Shown: in pieces, positions 55,420 through 64,000 of the stretch
How the letters are laid out: every line of letters begins with the position of its first letter
Numbering within the stretch: position 1 is the stretch's first letter
Assembly: GCA_013141415.1 (NCBI GenBank)
Contig: JABFQY010000001.1
Span: 496,001-560,000, forward strand
Reading direction: 5' to 3'
Origin: Kiritimatiellaceae bacterium
Lineage (GTDB): Bacteria; Verrucomicrobiota; Kiritimatiellia; Kiritimatiellales; Tichowtungiaceae
Length of the DNA: 64,000 nucleotides
Program-made: the position numbers and the translations under genes
The notes under the pieces: generated by a model
What the model saw: only the letters and a program-made list of their open reading frames with translations
Database searches by the model: none
Told to the model about the DNA's origin: nothing

Positions 55420-56085
55420 ATGTTTGTAAAAGCACAGATTTTGATTGCCGTCATTCTGGTCTCCGGAACGCTTTTTGCCGGACTGCCGGAGCCCGCAACG
55501 CCGGTTGCGGAGATTGTTTTCGTGGCACTCGATACCGAAACTACCGGCTTCAGTCCGAAGAATGACCGGCTGATTGAAATCGGCGCGGTGCGCTTTCGCG
55601 GTAACGGCGAAATTCTGGCGGTCACCAACTGGATGATTAATCCGGGAATGCCGATTCGCCCGCAGGCCACGGAAGTGAATGGAATTACCGATGCGATGGT
55701 AGCCGGTGCGCCGCCGTTTTCGGCGGTTTGTCCGGAGTTTGTTTCATTCTGCGACGGCAGTGTTTTATTGGCGCACAACGCGACGTTTGATGTCGGGTTT
55801 CTCCGAGCCGGGTTTGCGCGCGCCGGAGTTTCCGCGCCGGAACTGCCGATACTCGATACACTGCCGCTGTTCCGCGTCTGGTTTCCGCAGGCGAAAAGTT
55901 TCGCGCTCGAACCGCTTGCTCAATATCTCGGCTTGCAGAATGAGATGTGGCACCGCGCCGGTGCCGATTCATTTCACCTGATTGATATTTTTAAAATTGG
56001 TGTAACGGCTCGTCCGGAGCTGAAGTTTCAGGAGCTGGAGCGCGGCGCGGGCGGAATCAAGTTGCTGAATGAAAGGCGGAATTGA
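55420..56085 (+). CDS. DEDDh exonuclease with signal peptide
   Basis: 221 residues from ATG 55420. The 3'-5' exonuclease fold of DnaQ type is complete: DTETTG (Exo I), NGITDAMV, HNATFDVGFL (Exo II), and HRAGADSFHL with the HxAxxD of Exo III. Ahead of it lies a hydrophobic N-terminus (AQILIAVILVSGTLFAGL) that looks like a signal peptide, odd for a nuclease of this type. The start is uncertain: a GTG at 55399 is possible. The ATG sits inside a palindrome (tttccaatgtttgtaaa). It overlaps the next gene by one base (TGATG). Confidence 0.75.
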   Translation: MFVKAQILIAVILVSGTLFAGLPEPATPVAEIVFVALDTETTGFSPKNDRLIEIGAVRFRGNGEILAVTNWMINPGMPIRPQATEVNGITDAMVAGAPPFSAVCPEFVSFCDGSVLLAHNATFDVGFLRAGFARAGVSAPELPILDTLPLFRVWFPQAKSFALEPLAQYLGLQNEMWHRAGADSFHLIDIFKIGVTARPELKFQELERGAGGIKLLNERRN

Positions 56086-56849
56086 TGCAGACGATTACTT
56101 CGAAGGACAACCCGAAGCTCAAGGCGGTACGTGCGCTGGTGCGTTCTAAGAAAGACCGGCAGGAAGCCTCCGCGTTTGTGATGGAAGGCGTCCGTTCACT
56201 CAGCGCACTGAGCGACGGTTCCGCGCTTCCTCAGTACCGGCTTAGAGAAATCTGGGTTGCTTCCGATGCGGTTGAGCTGGCGAAGGATTTTGCGGTACCG
56301 GTTTATGCCGTTGAGCCTGCCGTGATGGAACAGCTTTCCGACTGCCAGACTTCGCAGGGAATTCTCGGTGTGGTGCAGTACACACAGGAGCCGCTGACGA
56401 TTCTTCCGGAGAAGGGAAACTATCTGCTGGTTGACGGACTGACCGATCCCGGCAACCTCGGCACATTGATCCGCTCGGCGGTTGCTTTCGGTTTTTCCGG
56501 CGTTTTTCTGCATGGCGACACGGTGGAGGTGTTTAACCCGAAAACGGTTCGGGCAACGATGGGCGCTCTGCCGTTTGCCAATGTCTGGAAGACCGATGAA
56601 ACGGTTTTCCAGACTCTGGAACAATCGGGCTACGATTTGATTTCGACGGTTATTCACGGCGGCGAAAATCTGCATACCATGAAGCTCGGACCGAAAAATG
56701 TACTGGTGATCGGCAATGAGGCGCACGGCGTTTCGGCGGCGGTTCAGCAGCGGGCGACAAGGAGCCTTTCGATTCCAATGTCCGGGAATGTTGAATCCCT
56801 CAATGCCGCAGTCGCCGGATCGATTTGCATGGTTGCAATCAGCGGTTGA
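56085..56849 (+). CDS. SpoU/TrmH-family RNA 2'-O-methyltransferase
   Basis: 254 residues. N-terminal substrate-binding part (NPKLKAVRAL), then the SPOUT trefoil-knot domain with LTDPGNLGTLIRSAVAFG (motif 1), VLVIGNEAHG (motif 2) and IPMSGNVESLNAAVAG (motif 3). It methylates ribose in rRNA or tRNA; the site is unknown. TGATG overlap with the exonuclease gene. Confidence 0.9.
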   Translation: MQTITSKDNPKLKAVRALVRSKKDRQEASAFVMEGVRSLSALSDGSALPQYRLREIWVASDAVELAKDFAVPVYAVEPAVMEQLSDCQTSQGILGVVQYTQEPLTILPEKGNYLLVDGLTDPGNLGTLIRSAVAFGFSGVFLHGDTVEVFNPKTVRATMGALPFANVWKTDETVFQTLEQSGYDLISTVIHGGENLHTMKLGPKNVLVIGNEAHGVSAAVQQRATRSLSIPMSGNVESLNAAVAGSICMVAISG

Positions 56850-56884: not shown

Positions 56885-59635
56885 ATGAATCTACCGTGCA
56901 CTCTTCGCCGCAGGTTTTTTGTGTCCAGCATCCTGATCTTCGGGTGCACGCTATTTTTTTTAAACGGCACGGCCACCGCGCAGGAGCCGGAAGCAATCCC
57001 GATTTCCGAGCAGTCAACCAGTGCATTGCTGGGAACGGTTCGTGACTTGCTGGAGAAAGTGCAGTCGGAGCAGGCGATTCCTTATCTTCAGGAAATTCTA
57101 GTCCGGCTTGACGGGTTGACCGATGCGTCCACCGTCAACACCCGCGCAACCTGTATGTATCATTTGGGGATGTGTTACCTCCAAATGCAAAAATTTCCGG
57201 AAGCGGTGGAGCTGTTTAAGACGTTTGTTCAGACCTACCCGGATGATAAAGCGGCGCTGATGGCGCGCTTCCTGATTCTGGAAGCCTACGCATGGCAGTC
57301 CGATACCCGCCCGATGAAGGACTACATCGAACAGTTGAAGGCCAGCGGTGAGATGGATCGCCTGCTGTCTGTTTTCTCCGATTCGAAAAATTCAGATACG
57401 TACCGGCATGCGGCATTATTGCTGGTCACAGCGTATGCCCGTTCCGCCGATCTGGAAAATGTTCAGCGGTTTCTTCCCTATTGCGACACACCGGCCCGCA
57501 GTGATGTCGGATTGAATGTCGCGCTGATGGAAGGCGGAGACCTTGTATTTGAGCAGAAGGATTATATTCACGCGCTGGAACTGTACCGTATGGTGCAGTT
57601 GAGCGGAGAGCTGAAGGTCGCGTATGACCAGCGGCTGAAGGCGCTGAAAGATGAACTGTCCAAACCGCCGCCGTGGGTTCCGCTGGCTCAGCGCGAGGCG
57701 CAGAAGGCCGGGCGGGAAGATGATCAGGTGCGCTATGAACAAATGCTGAAAGAGCGGCAGGAACTCGATGTGCGGAATTATGATCTGGAACTGATGATCC
57801 GTATGGCGCGGTGCTACGAGGCGATGGACCGCAACTGGCCGGCCTATTTGATCTTTAAGCATATTTATGCCGGGTTCCCGGAAAATCCGCTGGCGGAACA
57901 GTGCCGGTATTTTGCATTCCAGTCGCTGATTTCTCTGAAGGAACAGGAGGTGGCCAAGGCGGAAGGGTACGCCTGCATGAAACTTTACCCGCAGGGAATT
58001 TTCCATGATGAGTTGACGCTGAGTCTGATGAATCTGCATCTGGCAATGAATGAGGCGGATAAGGCGGAGACTCTCGGAAAGGAACTGCTGGCACAGCAAC
58101 CGCCGCACCGTTTCGCCGATCAGGTGAGCTATCTGCTGGGCTATGTCAAATTTGAACAGCAGAACTATGAAGCGGCGCTCGAACTTTTTTCTAATGCGGC
58201 GGAAAAGTGGCCGTCCGGCGTTTATGCGCAGGAATCAGTTTACTGGACCGGTATGTGCAATCTTTTTCTGGAGCGGTTCGACGAGGCGATCGCCGTATTC
58301 GAAGGCTATCTGAATAATCCGGTCTGGGAGAAAAAAGAGTTTGCCGAAGATGCAATGTACCGGCTCGGCATGGCTTTCCGCGGTAAAGGCGATGCCGCGG
58401 AATCTGAAAAGACATTCCGCCGGTTTCTGGTGCAGTTCCCCGAAAGCAATTTGCGTTCGGATGTTTTGAGTCTGACGGGCGATCTGCGCGGAGCGGGCGG
58501 CGATTTAAACGCGGAACTCGACTATTACCGGCAGGCGAGGGACTGTGCTGTCGGTACAGAACAGAAAACCCGTGCCGTGGTTCAGATGGCGCAGGTGTAC
58601 ACGTTGCAGAAAAATTACGCCGGAGTTATTGCTTTGATGGAAGAATACCTTGCGACAGCGGACAGCAAGGGCGACTTCGCCGGAGCCGGTCGCTGGATGA
58701 TCGAATCCTGCAAAACTCCGGATGACTGCGATAAGACTCTGGATGCTTGCGGAAAAATTTTTGCCAAGTACGGAAACGACCCTCAACTCGAAAGCGTTGA
58801 TCTGCTGATCGAAGCCTTGGCGAACGAAAAACCGGACGTGAAGCGGGATGGTGCATTCGCCAAACGGATGAAGTCCCGTCTGGCGGGTGACCGGGAAGCG
58901 GCCTGTCGTGACAATGCAAAGAAGACGCTTTGTTTGCGGATGAACGCACTGTTTGCAGGTGCCAGTGAAGGTTCGGACCGGGAAGTATATGTGAACGCCA
59001 TTCTGGGCGAAAAGGATATGACTGCGTTTTCGCCGTTTTTACTGCTGCTGTTTGCCAGAGAGTCCGCCGCGCGCTCTGACATGGATCGGGTGCAGGCCGC
59101 CTACGGGCAGTTCCGGCACGCGTTCTTTTCGTCTGAGCTGATGCCGGACATGGCGAATATCGAGACCTCCGTGCTGTTGAGTGCCGGCAGATATGAAGAG
59201 GCGCTGAAGATGGCGCAGGAAAATCTGCAAAAGGTTTCCGGTAATCCGAAAGAGGGGCTGACTCAGAAGCTGGCGGCCGATGCGCTCCGGCTGATGAAGG
59301 ATTATGACGGAGCGGTTGAGCAGTATAACCGGTTCCTGCCGGTTCGCGAATGGCGCGGCCCGCTGACGCCGCAAGTGATTTACTGGATCGGAATATGCCG
59401 CTACGAACAGGGGCGGTTTGAGGAAGCGTTCGCATTTTTTCAGCGGGTATATGTGCTTTATGGAGGACACACGGAGTGGACTTCCAAAGCCTACGAAGGC
59501 AGTGCGAACTGTCTGCGGAAACTCGGACGCCAGCCGGAGCTGATTAAAACCTTGAAGGAGATGGTCAGCAATGCGGAGGTCGCCGCGACACCTGAAGGCC
59601 GCCGTGCGCAGGCTGAGCTGGAGGCAAGCCGGTGA
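56885..59635 (+). CDS. large secreted TPR protein
   Basis: 916 residues from ATG 56885. N-terminal signal sequence (about 1-36: basic residues, then SSILIFGCTLFFL), followed by at least a dozen helical tetratricopeptide-like repeats through the whole length, for example MYHLGMCYLQMQKFPEAVELF, SVYWTGMCNLFLERFDEAI, AMYRLGMAFRGKGDAAES and VIYWIGICRYEQGRFEEAF. TPR proteins bind partners, here outside the cytoplasm. Genes after it are coupled (GTGA overlap with the next), so it belongs to the ExbB/ExbD operon. An earlier start at 56825 overlaps the methyltransferase. Confidence 0.8.
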   Translation: MNLPCTLRRRFFVSSILIFGCTLFFLNGTATAQEPEAIPISEQSTSALLGTVRDLLEKVQSEQAIPYLQEILVRLDGLTDASTVNTRATCMYHLGMCYLQMQKFPEAVELFKTFVQTYPDDKAALMARFLILEAYAWQSDTRPMKDYIEQLKASGEMDRLLSVFSDSKNSDTYRHAALLLVTAYARSADLENVQRFLPYCDTPARSDVGLNVALMEGGDLVFEQKDYIHALELYRMVQLSGELKVAYDQRLKALKDELSKPPPWVPLAQREAQKAGREDDQVRYEQMLKERQELDVRNYDLELMIRMARCYEAMDRNWPAYLIFKHIYAGFPENPLAEQCRYFAFQSLISLKEQEVAKAEGYACMKLYPQGIFHDELTLSLMNLHLAMNEADKAETLGKELLAQQPPHRFADQVSYLLGYVKFEQQNYEAALELFSNAAEKWPSGVYAQESVYWTGMCNLFLERFDEAIAVFEGYLNNPVWEKKEFAEDAMYRLGMAFRGKGDAAESEKTFRRFLVQFPESNLRSDVLSLTGDLRGAGGDLNAELDYYRQARDCAVGTEQKTRAVVQMAQVYTLQKNYAGVIALMEEYLATADSKGDFAGAGRWMIESCKTPDDCDKTLDACGKIFAKYGNDPQLESVDLLIEALANEKPDVKRDGAFAKRMKSRLAGDREAACRDNAKKTLCLRMNALFAGASEGSDREVYVNAILGEKDMTAFSPFLLLLFARESAARSDMDRVQAAYGQFRHAFFSSELMPDMANIETSVLLSAGRYEEALKMAQENLQKVSGNPKEGLTQKLAADALRLMKDYDGAVEQYNRFLPVREWRGPLTPQVIYWIGICRYEQGRFEEAFAFFQRVYVLYGGHTEWTSKAYEGSANCLRKLGRQPELIKTLKEMVSNAEVAATPEGRRAQAELEASR

Positions 59636-60399
59636 AAATTTCAAAACTCATTTTTCTGATGCTTCTGGTCTGCCATGCAGCCTTTGCCAAAGTGAAGGTG
59701 ACGCTTCAGAGCGGTACGGTACGCACGATGGATTCGCTGGTCGTGAAAGATGGCCGTCTTCTTCTGTCGGCAGAAAACGTGCAGGTTCCCGTTGTGCAGG
59801 TCGTCTCGGCAGAATTTACTTTCGACGGATTTTCAACCGGACAGTGCCGGGAACTTCTGGATCGGGGTGACGCCGACGGCGTTATCAAAAAGATTGCGGA
59901 TGCGGGAACTTCATTGCTGGCCGCCGTATCTATGAAGGGAAATGCTCCGGAGTGGCTTCGCTTGCTGAGCCGGGCGCAGTTTCATAGCGGTGATTACGCT
60001 GCGGCCATCGCAACGATGCAGACTCTCCGCCAGACCGGTAACCTGTCCGCTGAAGAATTCGCACCGTATGAAATTATTTCACTGATTGAGGCGAACCGCA
60101 TTGCCGAGGCGGCAAAGATGTTCGATGCTGCGAAGATGTCGGACAAGGCGGCGGCGGAGTTTATTCTCGCCCGGCTGTCGGCCTCCCGTTCGGATTATAA
60201 GGAGGCGTTGCAGCATTTGGCCCGTCTGCAGATCTTTTATTACCGCGAAAAAGAATGGATGCCGTGCGCCCTGTTTTACGAAGGGCTGGTGTCTAAACAG
60301 GCTGAACTGCCAACGGCATCTGCGGCAGCGGTTCAGGAATTGGAAACACTTTATCCGGCCAGTCGCTGGTGCCGGATAGCAAAAGAGCAGTTGAAATAG
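59632..60399 (+). CDS. secreted repeat protein of the ExbBD operon
   Basis: 255 residues from a GTG start overlapping the previous stop by 4 bases. Signal peptide (1-19), a short beta-rich part (VKVTLQSGTVRTMDSLVV), and then TPR-like helices (about 100-250, including ALQHLARLQIFYYREKEWMPCALFYEG). It may sit next to the preceding TPR protein as a periplasmic partner. No family name is firm. Confidence 0.55.
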   Translation: MKISKLIFLMLLVCHAAFAKVKVTLQSGTVRTMDSLVVKDGRLLLSAENVQVPVVQVVSAEFTFDGFSTGQCRELLDRGDADGVIKKIADAGTSLLAAVSMKGNAPEWLRLLSRAQFHSGDYAAAIATMQTLRQTGNLSAEEFAPYEIISLIEANRIAEAAKMFDAAKMSDKAAAEFILARLSASRSDYKEALQHLARLQIFYYREKEWMPCALFYEGLVSKQAELPTASAAAVQELETLYPASRWCRIAKEQLK

Positions 60400-60427
60400 A
60401 TTTCGAAATAAAAAGAGGAGTCCGGTT

Positions 60428-61192
60428 ATGAAAAAAATCCGTTTGAATGTATTCATTGTGGCGGCGGTTCTGTTGATGGCCGCCGGTTCTCTGGTTGAAG
60501 CCCGTGCTCAAAGCGGAACGGCAGCGGCCATTCAGGCGCAGAGCTCGGCCGCCGGAGTGAAGACCGTGACGTTTGCCGAAATGTGGCGGGTAGGCGGATG
60601 GTGTATGTGGCCGCTGGGACTTTGCTCGGTTGCTGCAATGTATTTTGTAATCCGTAATATCATCATGCTTCGCACAAAAAATCTTCTCCGGTCGGATCTG
60701 AAGTCCGAAATCGAAACGTTTCTCGCCCGCCGTGATCTGAAAGGTGTGCGCGAAGTTTGTCAGAACAACCCCAGTCTGATGACCTCGGTGCTCGATGCCG
60801 GACTGGAGCGTATTTCGGAAAACGATTTTGATCCCGCGCATGTTATGGAAGCGATCGAGGAGGCCGGGAATGAACAGATGGTTACCTATATGAAGCCAAT
60901 CAATTATCTTTCCATGATCGGCAGTGTTGCTCCGATGCTCGGGCTTCTGGGAACGGTTTCCGGGATGATTAAAGCCTTCGCGAATATCTCGGCCGGCGGA
61001 ATGGGGAAACCGGAACTGCTGGCGGGTAACATTGGCGAAGCGCTGATTACCACGGCCGCCGGGCTGATTATTGCCATTCCCGCCATGACGGCCTATTTCA
61101 TCTTCAAAAACAACTTTATCAAAAACATGTCCACGATGGGCCGGATGGTCGGGCACTTCATGAATGTCTATCGGAATTCCGTAAGCCGGTAA
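60428..61192 (+). CDS. MotA/TolQ/ExbB proton channel protein
   Basis: 254 residues. A signal-like hydrophobic N-terminus (about 8-25), then the ExbB/TolQ topology: membrane helices near residues 60-78, 150-175 and 195-215, and the family patch IGSVAPMLGLLGTVSGMIKAF with GNIGEALITTAAGLIIAIPAM. It forms the stator channel that uses the proton gradient with an ExbD partner. Ribosome site agagga. ExbD genes follow. Confidence 0.9.
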   Translation: MKKIRLNVFIVAAVLLMAAGSLVEARAQSGTAAAIQAQSSAAGVKTVTFAEMWRVGGWCMWPLGLCSVAAMYFVIRNIIMLRTKNLLRSDLKSEIETFLARRDLKGVREVCQNNPSLMTSVLDAGLERISENDFDPAHVMEAIEEAGNEQMVTYMKPINYLSMIGSVAPMLGLLGTVSGMIKAFANISAGGMGKPELLAGNIGEALITTAAGLIIAIPAMTAYFIFKNNFIKNMSTMGRMVGHFMNVYRNSVSR

Positions 61193-61208
61193 AAAGTCTG
61201 GAGCAGGA

Positions 61209-61634
61209 ATGCAGTTCAAAATTCCAACCGAAGGCGGCGATGACGAGATCAACATGGCGCCCATGATTGACATGGTGTTTCTCCTGCTGATCTTTTTCAT
61301 GGTGACTTCACACATTAAGTCGCTGGAACTGACGCCGGTTAATCTGCCGGTAGCGGATAAGGCCAAGGTGCCGGAGACGGCGCGCGACCGGCAGGTCGTC
61401 ACGGTTGCGGCAGAGTCCGGCGGCAGAGTGAGCTACTACATCAACCTGCAAAAGGTGAATATTCAGGAGTTATCTGCCGAGATGATCCGGCAGCAGGCTG
61501 CCAATAAAGACGTGCGGATCTATCTGCGAGCCGATCGACAGGTGAAGCAGAAACACATTAAAGCGGTGATGTCGGCGTGTGCGGAAGCGGGAATTGCCGA
61601 TATCATCTTCGGGGTGGTTGAATCCGGAAAATAG
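61209..61634 (+). CDS. ExbD/TolR family protein 1
   Basis: 141 residues. Short cytoplasmic N-terminus, one membrane helix (about 18-40: INMAPMIDMVFLLLIFFMV, with the Asp needed for proton use), and a periplasmic domain. Gives, with ExbB, the proton-driven motor unit. Another ExbD-like gene follows immediately. Confidence 0.9.
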   Translation: MQFKIPTEGGDDEINMAPMIDMVFLLLIFFMVTSHIKSLELTPVNLPVADKAKVPETARDRQVVTVAAESGGRVSYYINLQKVNIQELSAEMIRQQAANKDVRIYLRADRQVKQKHIKAVMSACAEAGIADIIFGVVESGK

Positions 61635-61635
61635 T

Positions 61636-62076
61636 ATGAAAGCCTGGCTGGACGAATTAATAAACGAAAAGGTGGGGTTGCAGATTGCTCCGCTGATCGA
61701 CTGCGTATTTCTGCTGCTGATCTACTTCATGGTCAGTTCGTCTATGAAAAAATCGGAAGCCGATTTGAGCCTGGCTCTGCCCGGCGCCGTGGTTCAGACG
61801 CAGGCCGTCAGTATTCCCGACGAGCAGATTATTGAGGTTCATGCCGACGGGGCCATTGTCATGAACGGGCGAACCTATACCGATCCATCCAAGGCGGATA
61901 TTAATGCACTGGGATATACATTGCTCCGGTACCGCGAAGCCTCCCAGCTGGCCAACGTGCTTCCGGCCATCACGATTGAAGCGGATGACGAGGCAACCCA
62001 TGAACGGGTCGTTGACGCACTGAACGCCTGCGCCGGTGCCGGCATTAAAACCATAACCTTTGGAATCGGGAATTGA
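61636..62076 (+). CDS. ExbD/TolR family protein 2
   Basis: 146 residues from ATG 61636. Membrane helix with LIDCVFLLLIYFMV (Asp in the same place as ExbD1) and a periplasmic domain. A second, diverged ExbD copy, only a base away from the first (61634/61636), could form a hetero-oligomer. A vWA-like protein gene follows after 19 bases. Confidence 0.9.
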   Translation: MKAWLDELINEKVGLQIAPLIDCVFLLLIYFMVSSSMKKSEADLSLALPGAVVQTQAVSIPDEQIIEVHADGAIVMNGRTYTDPSKADINALGYTLLRYREASQLANVLPAITIEADDEATHERVVDALNACAGAGIKTITFGIGN

Positions 62077-62095
62077 ACAGGGCTGGTAAATTGTA

Positions 62096-64000
62096 ATGAA
62101 GAACACGCTGTCCAATTTAAAACTGAAAAGCCGCTCCACCTCGTTCAAGGCCGCCGCACTCAGCCTGACCTTTCATGCTCTGCTGGTTTTTTTTGCCGGT
62201 TCAATTGTGGCCGTGCACTATATTCAGAAGCAGAATGCCGAATTTACGGTATCGACCGCTTCGCCGAAACAGGAGCGCCGACAGACGGCGAAAGCCAAAC
62301 CTGAACCGCCGCGTGAAATGATCCGTCCGACAAAAATCGTCAGCCGCTCGGTTTCCGTATCTGCGCCGACGTTCACCGCGCCAACGGTTGCTGCGCCCGA
62401 TAACAAACCCAAACACGCCAGTTCGCAGAAGTTTTCTCTCCCCGCCGCGCAGGCCGGGCGCGACGTTGAAGCGATTTCCGGCCGGTTCGGCGGCGGAACA
62501 CCGCAGATCAATTTTTTCGGAATTTCAACTGAGGGTGAAAAGTTTGTTTTCGTTATTGATGCATCGGCCGGCATGCTGACACCGGAAACAGGCGGGCTTC
62601 CGGCCTATAACTACATCAAAGATACGCTGTGCCAGACGATCACCAAACTGCCTGCGGCGGTTCTGTATAATGTGATTCTCTATGACGGCGGAAAGATCAG
62701 CCTGTTTCGTCCTCAGCCGGTTCCGGCCACCAAGGGAAACAACGCCGCGTTAAGCAAATGGATTCAAGCCGTCAATCAGGATTCATCCGCCGCAGGTCTG
62801 GCGAACGAGCAGGACAATTACCGCCGCCCGGAGCCGTACCCGACGGCGGTCGGTTCGGATTCCGCAGGCTGGCTGCTGTCTCTTCAGGCCGCCTTCGAGC
62901 AGCGTCCCGATAACGTTTTTATCCTCACTTCCGATTGGGGGAAGCACAATATCAGTCCGGCAAAACAGCGGCTTCTGCGCGACTTCTCGCTTTGGGAGCT
63001 GCTGAGCGGCGGGGGGGCGGCCTCGGTTGGCGGGTCGTCGATTCTGCGCGATGACCGGAAGCTTCGGGACGATCTATTGAAGCGGGCCGTGGAAACGATT
63101 CAGAAGCAGGCGGATTCGCGCAAAAACGCCGGGCTTCCCGGTGAGTTCCTGCACGACATTCCCGCATATATTGAATATCCGGCGGATCAGATTCTGGATC
63201 ACGCCGAGGGGGTTTATCGCACACAGTATATGCCGTATCAGCTTGAACGTCCCAGAGTGCACGTCGTCCGGCTTCTTTCGGAGGGCAGTAATAGCAACTC
63301 CGACTATTTTATGACGTATATGCGGAATCTTGTTCGCCGCTATAACGGCGAATTTGAAGCTTTCTCCGGCAGACAAAGCGCTTCTTCAGTTAATGGTCTG
63401 CAAGAATCTGTTGCGGATCAGACTGCGGACATGACGCAGAATCCGGAAGCACCGGTTTCTCCGGTTAAATTTCTCGGAGCCAATGCGGACGGTTCGCGGA
63501 TCGCGTTTATTCTCGATGCGTCCGCCGGGATGCTTTCGGTTAAGACCGGCGGAACCAATACCTATGCGCTGATCAAGGATTGCATAATAAAGGCCGTGGC
63601 GGAACTGCAGCCCGGCACGCTGTTTAATGTGATCGCCTACGACCGCAAGCAGGTTACGCAGTTCCGCAGTCAAATGGCTCCTGTATCGCAAAGCCGGGAG
63701 CTGGCCGATTGGTTGAAGAATCTGAACAGCAGTGTTGCCCGATCCGGTTTGCGGCCCGAACAAAACAACTATACGCCGACAAACGTTTACGATACCGCGA
63801 TCGGAGCGGATGTTCAGTCTCTGCCGTATGCCGTGCAGGCGGCGATGGAAGAACAGGCCGATGCGATATTCATTGTGTCGACAGGAATCGGGCCTCAGCC
63901 GGTCAGCCCGGAAAAAGCCGCCCGTCTGCTCGATTTTTCCATCTGGAACTCTCTGGGCGGCTCGTCCGGAAACGTTGGTGAAGAAGATGAAAACGGAAAT
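62096..64000 (+). CDS. membrane-anchored tandem vWA-like protein, 5' part
   Basis: The frame is open to the window end (635 codons, no stop). A short N-terminus is followed by one membrane helix (about 25-45) and a Pro/Lys-rich linker (about 55-135). Two similar vWA-like domains follow, marked by VIDASAGMLTPETGG (Asp155) and ILDASAGMLSVKTGG (Asp474); MIDAS-like DxSxG in place of the usual DxSxS. Between them is a coupling part with IQKQADSRKNAG. In topology it resembles TonB (anchor plus linker) but carries vWA domains. It is last in the ExbB-ExbD operon, so a TonB-like role is inference. Its 3' end is outside the window. Confidence 0.7.
   Translation, partial: MKNTLSNLKLKSRSTSFKAAALSLTFHALLVFFAGSIVAVHYIQKQNAEFTVSTASPKQERRQTAKAKPEPPREMIRPTKIVSRSVSVSAPTFTAPTVAAPDNKPKHASSQKFSLPAAQAGRDVEAISGRFGGGTPQINFFGISTEGEKFVFVIDASAGMLTPETGGLPAYNYIKDTLCQTITKLPAAVLYNVILYDGGKISLFRPQPVPATKGNNAALSKWIQAVNQDSSAAGLANEQDNYRRPEPYPTAVGSDSAGWLLSLQAAFEQRPDNVFILTSDWGKHNISPAKQRLLRDFSLWELLSGGGAASVGGSSILRDDRKLRDDLLKRAVETIQKQADSRKNAGLPGEFLHDIPAYIEYPADQILDHAEGVYRTQYMPYQLERPRVHVVRLLSEGSNSNSDYFMTYMRNLVRRYNGEFEAFSGRQSASSVNGLQESVADQTADMTQNPEAPVSPVKFLGANADGSRIAFILDASAGMLSVKTGGTNTYALIKDCIIKAVAELQPGTLFNVIAYDRKQVTQFRSQMAPVSQSRELADWLKNLNSSVARSGLRPEQNNYTPTNVYDTAIGADVQSLPYAVQAAMEEQADAIFIVSTGIGPQPVSPEKAARLLDFSIWNSLGGSSGNVGEEDENGN

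Follow-up and report, generated by a model that had tools for sequence, protein, structure and literature searches.

The window, that is, the whole 64,000-nt stretch of DNA that was analysed (G000:C1:496001-560000), comes from a source genome of 2.2 Mb, here called G000. At its end lies an operon of six open reading frames that occupies positions 56885-64390 when the window is read together with its continuation (Table 1). All six are encoded on the plus strand and the junctions between them are -4, 28, 16, 1 and 19 nt, in gene order, which bears out the tight, unidirectional packing described in the initial annotation. In brief, the operon encodes two exported TPR-like proteins, an ExbB/TolQ-like channel, two distinct ExbD-like proteins and a membrane anchored protein with a Pro-rich linker and two vWA domains. 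Pfam recovered the families that the initial annotation had assigned to the first five genes, and AlphaFold2 and Foldseek agree on the architecture proposed for the sixth. Upstream of the operon are clpP, clpX, murB and an RNA methyltransferase, and downstream of the vWA gene are queD, queC and queE, convergent and on the opposite strand (all named from sequence). The neighbours of the operon in the window are housekeeping genes, with no link to glycans there. The RNA-methyltransferase-like gene (56082-56849) lies directly upstream of the cassette and may be part of its transcription unit; a gene of similar size is found in the matching position in genome G013 (L040:4492-5277).

Table 1. Features of the six-gene operon, in window coordinates
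Feature	Position	Strand	Evidence
Large TPR protein, CpoB/YbgF-like, exported, 916 aa	56885..59635	+	TIGR02795 tol_pal_ybgF, TPR (Pfam); conserved first cassette gene
Small TPR protein, exported, 255 aa	59632..60399	+	Weak TPR matches (Pfam)
ExbB/TolQ-like channel, 254 aa	60428..61192	+	MotA_ExbB 7.6e-30 (Pfam)
ExbD1, 141 aa	61209..61634	+	ExbD 8.5e-27 (Pfam); PMIDM
ExbD2, 146 aa from ATG, distinct from ExbD1	61636..62076	+	ExbD 3.6e-18 (Pfam); PLIDC
vWA force-transducer gene, codons 1-635 of 764	62096..64000	+	ORF reading, AlphaFold2 model
SxxxH (Ser23-His27) in TM helix, TonB/TolA-type motor-docking motif	62162..62176	+	Family alignment
Disordered Pro/Lys linker, residues 50-132	62243..62491	+	pLDDT <50; homologous linker in relatives
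vWA domain 1, residues 137-437, DASAG at 62558-62572	62504..63406	+	AlphaFold2, Foldseek
vWA domain 2, residues 455-763, extends beyond window, DASAG at 63515-63529	63458..64000	+	AlphaFold2, Foldseek

The large TPR protein scores 112.7 bits against TIGR02795 (NCBIfam cut-off 90.1), and a homologue of the small TPR protein is encoded by the second gene of nearly all related cassettes. The ExbB protein has the MotA_ExbB domain with the pore Thr residues. Aligned with TolQ (8odt, match 3e-11), it retains both Thr motifs, GLLGTVSG and ALITTAAGL. ExbD1 and ExbD2 both have the ExbD/TolR layout, a TM helix with the proton Asp and a periplasmic domain, and the Asp is retained within the motif listed for each in Table 1. 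The Thr and Asp motor residues were found in nearly all examined cassettes, with a few loci unmatched by the simple motif patterns used for scoring.

The vWA gene continues for 390 nt beyond the edge of the window, to a stop at the equivalent of position 64390 (L005:8390), and encodes 764 aa in total. Read to this stop, the protein contains no TonB_C or TolA C-terminal domain by Pfam or in the AlphaFold2 model, and a TonB domain hidden beyond the edge is thereby ruled out. Pfam detects vWA weakly (7.4e-4). The AlphaFold2 model, made with 35 homologues (mean pLDDT 76.8), consists of a helix at residues 2-48, the disordered linker and two confident vWA domains. The best solved Foldseek match to this model is PTMP1, a tandem vWA protein from mussel (2.5e-7), followed by the vWA domains of integrin, TFIIH p34 and adhesins, including those of pilus tips. 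The SxxxH motif of the helix is well conserved, with Ser in 93% and His in 98% of 57 family members. Of the longer SHLS motif, Ser23 and His27 are present, while the Leu and the second Ser are absent at the TonB spacing (A34, V38). The helix region, SFKAAALSLTFHALLVFFAGSIVAV, contains no Asp.

The MIDAS variant DxSxG reported in the initial annotation is DASAG in both vWA domains, the third Ser being lost, and neither domain has the canonical MIDAS (DxSxS with downstream Thr and Asp). In the family alignment, the Asp is kept in 86% and the first Ser in 62% of sequences, and the third position is not kept. Since only the first two are retained, the conserved function of the family is probably something other than metal-dependent binding. 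In a tree of vWA domains, the first and second domains of the tandem proteins form sister groups (joint clade 100/100, second domain 98/94, first domain 85/58). Tandem proteins are found in G000, G013, G008 and G009, all of one genus. Judged from this tree, the tandem form is the result of a single internal duplication that predates these four genomes; a fusion of neighbouring paralogues is unsupported, as the two domains are sister clades.

The gene set is conserved far beyond G000, reappearing in genomes across the class. We found a vWA-arm match in 38 of 58 relatives, and vWA homologues in 24 of the 107 genera of a phylum-wide sample. A head lies directly downstream of TPR-TPR-ExbB-ExbD-ExbD in G013, G010 and G046, where it is a vWA protein (64% identity in G013), and in G014 and G025, where the heads are diverged. 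The same holds for G009, which has two single vWA genes at this place and a second set organized as TPR-TPR-tandem-vWA, and for G054, in which the small TPR gene is not called. An array of five successive single-vWA transducer genes is found in L043 (G036:C272, 1422-8499). A related-locus search using the single vWA protein as query returned nothing. The remaining genomes of the same genus are without the vWA arm or have another head, or have neither. In genomes G005-G007 of this genus we found no closely matching cassette, no vWA head and no head of the second type described below, indicating that the system is dispensable.

The initial annotation saw no TonB and placed the vWA protein in the TonB position of a proton-driven motor. 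The former is true for the window, but G000 encodes a TonB at C1:337.6k (TonB_C 9.3e-8) and a TolA (TonB_2 2.6e-18), both outside it. The latter is supported, but only as an additional arm: as TonB and TolA are encoded elsewhere in the genome, the vWA protein is not a substitute for them, and replacement of a missing TonB is ruled out. Three further ExbB-like loci are present in G000. L008 encodes ExbB-ExbD-TonB and adjoins a FeoB-like gene, L009 is a complete tolQRA-x-tolB-pal cluster, and L007 (6065-10340) encodes TPR-ExbB-ExbD and a short protein. A 314-aa gene sits between tolA and tolB (L009:5345-6286). The short anchored protein of L007 looks TonB-like at its C-terminus and has no Pfam match.

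We suggest, with a probability of about 0.72, that ExbB, ExbD1 and ExbD2 form a proton-driven motor that docks an inner-membrane arm with two vWA heads, and that the heads work near the outer membrane. The motor would be of the 5:2 type, an ExbB pentamer with an ExbD1/ExbD2 pair, and the SxxxH helix would dock the arm at its rim. The linker would span the periplasm and bear the two vWA heads where TonB and TolA have their own C-terminal domains. Driven by proton flow, the arm would turn or be pulled, and the heads would thereby either apply force to a partner close to the outer membrane or bind it and let it go; the likeliest partners or adaptors are the exported TPR proteins encoded in the same operon. 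The genes, motor residues, docking motif, linker, fold, synteny and conservation were read from sequence or predicted; complex formation, the ExbD1/ExbD2 heterodimer, force, partner and purpose are what we infer.

In Pontiellaceae, the closest motor cassettes (L060-L063) have no adjoining head, and up to 18-28 vWA-arm matches per genome are scattered away from the cassettes. One conserved orphan vWA arm in this family (L044-L049, L058 and L059) is always followed within approximately 10 nt by an exported gene of 290-324 aa. The one member of this gene scanned had no Pfam match, and the first 60 residues are SHD1-like by eye.

The vWA arms share an N-terminal docking module, the SxxxH helix followed by RPKMxLKK...KPK...RIV...MPDI, with a second class of proteins of approximately 370 or 620-660 aa, the head of which is not vWA. 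This class has the motif FRFWGxGDDxLxVxVxGKxVL and is PA14-like by eye. Pfam found SHD1 near the middle or in the C-terminal half of 17 of 20 members, and gave one marginal GLEYA match (0.003). AlphaFold2 with six sequences reached a pLDDT of 53.8 and a profile search of the PDB matched the SHD1 part alone; we treat the name PA14/GLEYA-like as a lead taken from the sequence. There are up to 28 second-class matches per genome, and none in G000. A second-class arm is located directly downstream of a complete cassette (G009, L069) and, in G002, G003 and G011, approximately 1 kb downstream of ExbB, leaving space for two ExbD genes. One type of motor cassette thus carries differing heads. Loci with second-class arms include L088:5832-6917, L089:8411-10354, L069:8697-9842 and L150-L215.

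A profile of the docking module matched at least 30 proteins in G025, 17 in G024 and 11 in G009. In G000 it matched one, the vWA protein of the window (1.3e-9). The 30 or more module proteins of G025 compare with 10 ExbB-like genes. TonB-dependent receptor plugs number only 2-4 per genome, and the genome with at least 30 docking-module proteins has 3 TonB-dependent receptors. Long frames that match the module in G024 (C2:2649703-2650314, 863 aa) and G025 (C4:110772, 975 aa) may be further head types. Because the module sits on many separate heads in the larger relatives, we infer that one Ton-like type of motor may there serve exchangeable heads.

The genes flanking orphan arms were compared by Pfam, 63 beside vWA arms and 67 beside second-type arms, with 79 control genes taken from genomes of the same kind at arbitrary positions that were evenly spaced. 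What follows is based on this systematic set and its control, not on the neighbours initially seen by eye. Glycoside hydrolases accounted for at least 13 of 63 vWA flanks, at least 10 of 67 second-type flanks and 4 of 79 controls; combined, this is at least 23 of 130 against 4 of 79 (Fisher p = 0.006), in a small sample where certain loci are orthologues shared by several genomes, the second-type (PA14-type) flanks stem partly from genomes other than those of the controls, and glycoside-hydrolase genes are plentiful throughout. GH29 alone was found six times beside vWA arms, where 0.88 would be expected from length (Poisson p = 3e-4). A linkage of orphan arms to sulfatases was ruled out (5 of 63 and 10 of 67 against 12 of 79 controls), since the density of sulfatases is high enough for random genes to match equally often. 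G000 has 33 sulfatase matches in its 2.2 Mb, and we did not find a GH29 fucosidase in it.

On evidence from these other genomes, glycan capture or import is our leading guess as to the purpose of the system. In its full form, the ExbB/ExbD1/ExbD2 cassettes of Kiritimatiellales-type bacteria might power a large repertoire of exchangeable, separately encoded arms with vWA or PA14/GLEYA-like heads, each dealing with particular glycans at the outer membrane, as a TonB-independent counterpart of SusCD/Ton uptake, and the tandem-vWA arm of the window would be the minimal single-head form. We put this forward tentatively, as possible and short of probable.

It is unlikely that the operon instead serves Tol-Pal-like envelope maintenance, with motor, vWA arm and CpoB-like TPR protein coordinating outer membrane and peptidoglycan in division. 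G000 already has a complete tolQRA-tolB-pal cluster, the cassette is missing from some relatives, and the paralogue expansion in Pontiellaceae is ill-suited to a single-copy division machine, even though the large TPR protein scores above the curated YbgF/CpoB cut-off and TolQ is among the best relatives of the ExbB. An adhesion or surface-movement machine, where a vWA adhesin would be powered by the motor in the way that AglRQS drives the Myxococcus gliding complex with CglB, and the heads bind a substrate or adhesin and not an import channel, seems to us quite unlikely. The vWA fold is an adhesion fold, the adhesive proteins PTMP1, integrin and pilus tips are among the best PDB matches, and a role in gliding has been suggested (PMC12204202), but a cultured Pontiella is reported to be non-motile (PMC10880615). 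Further, a linker of about 85 residues tethers the head to the inner membrane and the head is not surface-exposed, and the loss of the third MIDAS Ser in both domains, like the family-wide lack of a conserved DxSxS, argues against adhesion. Domains of the vWA type are frequent assembly platforms, yet a vWA protein that merely loads or gates the motor as scaffold or regulator, with no force transmitted, is highly improbable given the TonB-like layout, the conserved SxxxH and a docking module that also bears an unrelated head, a pattern easier to reconcile with interchangeable outputs than with a single, fixed regulator.

Returning to the motor with a docked arm, what merits further study is the range of exchangeable arms found in relatives, which goes beyond the text of PMC12204202. 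These bacteria have hundreds of sulfatases and glycosidases and only 2-4 TonB-dependent receptors per genome. For the passage of polysaccharide pieces across their outer membrane, a concrete candidate would be a motor of the Ton type that serves dozens of exchangeable arms encoded next to glycosidases. If true, the range of outputs driven by ExbB/ExbD motors would extend far beyond TonB and TolA.

The combination of motor and vWA protein, which the initial annotation held to be not well described, belongs to a class that had already been predicted. Williams-Jones et al. 2025 (PMC12204202) named 'vWA force transducers', citing Tichowtungia, and the operon is a real, conserved member of this class in a tandem-head variant. 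Arguing from the analogy to TonB/TolA, they predicted that force is driven by the PMF, and they stated the function as unknown; their AF3 models put the helix of the vWA transducer on the motor as for TonB/TolA. Their first family has an SHLS TM helix, a disordered Pro-rich domain II of approximately 100 residues and a C-terminal domain of vWA fold. The protein described here has the Ser/His TM helix, the disordered linker and the vWA head, the last in two copies as opposed to one, and shares the upstream TPR, tolQ-like and two different tolR-like genes. A further difference is that TonB and TolA are present in G000. The text of PMC12204202 makes no mention of a tandem form or of the second head class. 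It states that T. aerotolerans is without discernible TonB. Genome G009 may be a Tichowtungia, because the motif His of its two single-vWA proteins is residue 35 with the gene starts called here, and the published model cites His35; if so, that statement needs a second look, given the TonB_C matches in G009 (3.2e-15).

With TonB-ExbB-ExbD and TolA-TolQ-TolR, the operon shares the motor families, the conserved Thr and Asp, and an SxxxH arm with a linker, whereas it has no TonB or TolA C-terminal domain and has two ExbD genes and TPR genes. The second family of PMC12204202, TolQ with TPH-vWA, likewise couples vWA to a TolQ-like channel; that family has no ExbD/TolR genes and carries the proton Asp on the vWA helix, whereas the operon has real ExbDs with Asp, and its vWA helix is of the side-docking SxxxH kind and has none. 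Finally, the published AglRQS/CglB system of Myxococcus gliding also combines a TolQR-type motor with a vWA protein, but the vWA protein described here has an inner-membrane anchor and shares an operon with its motor.
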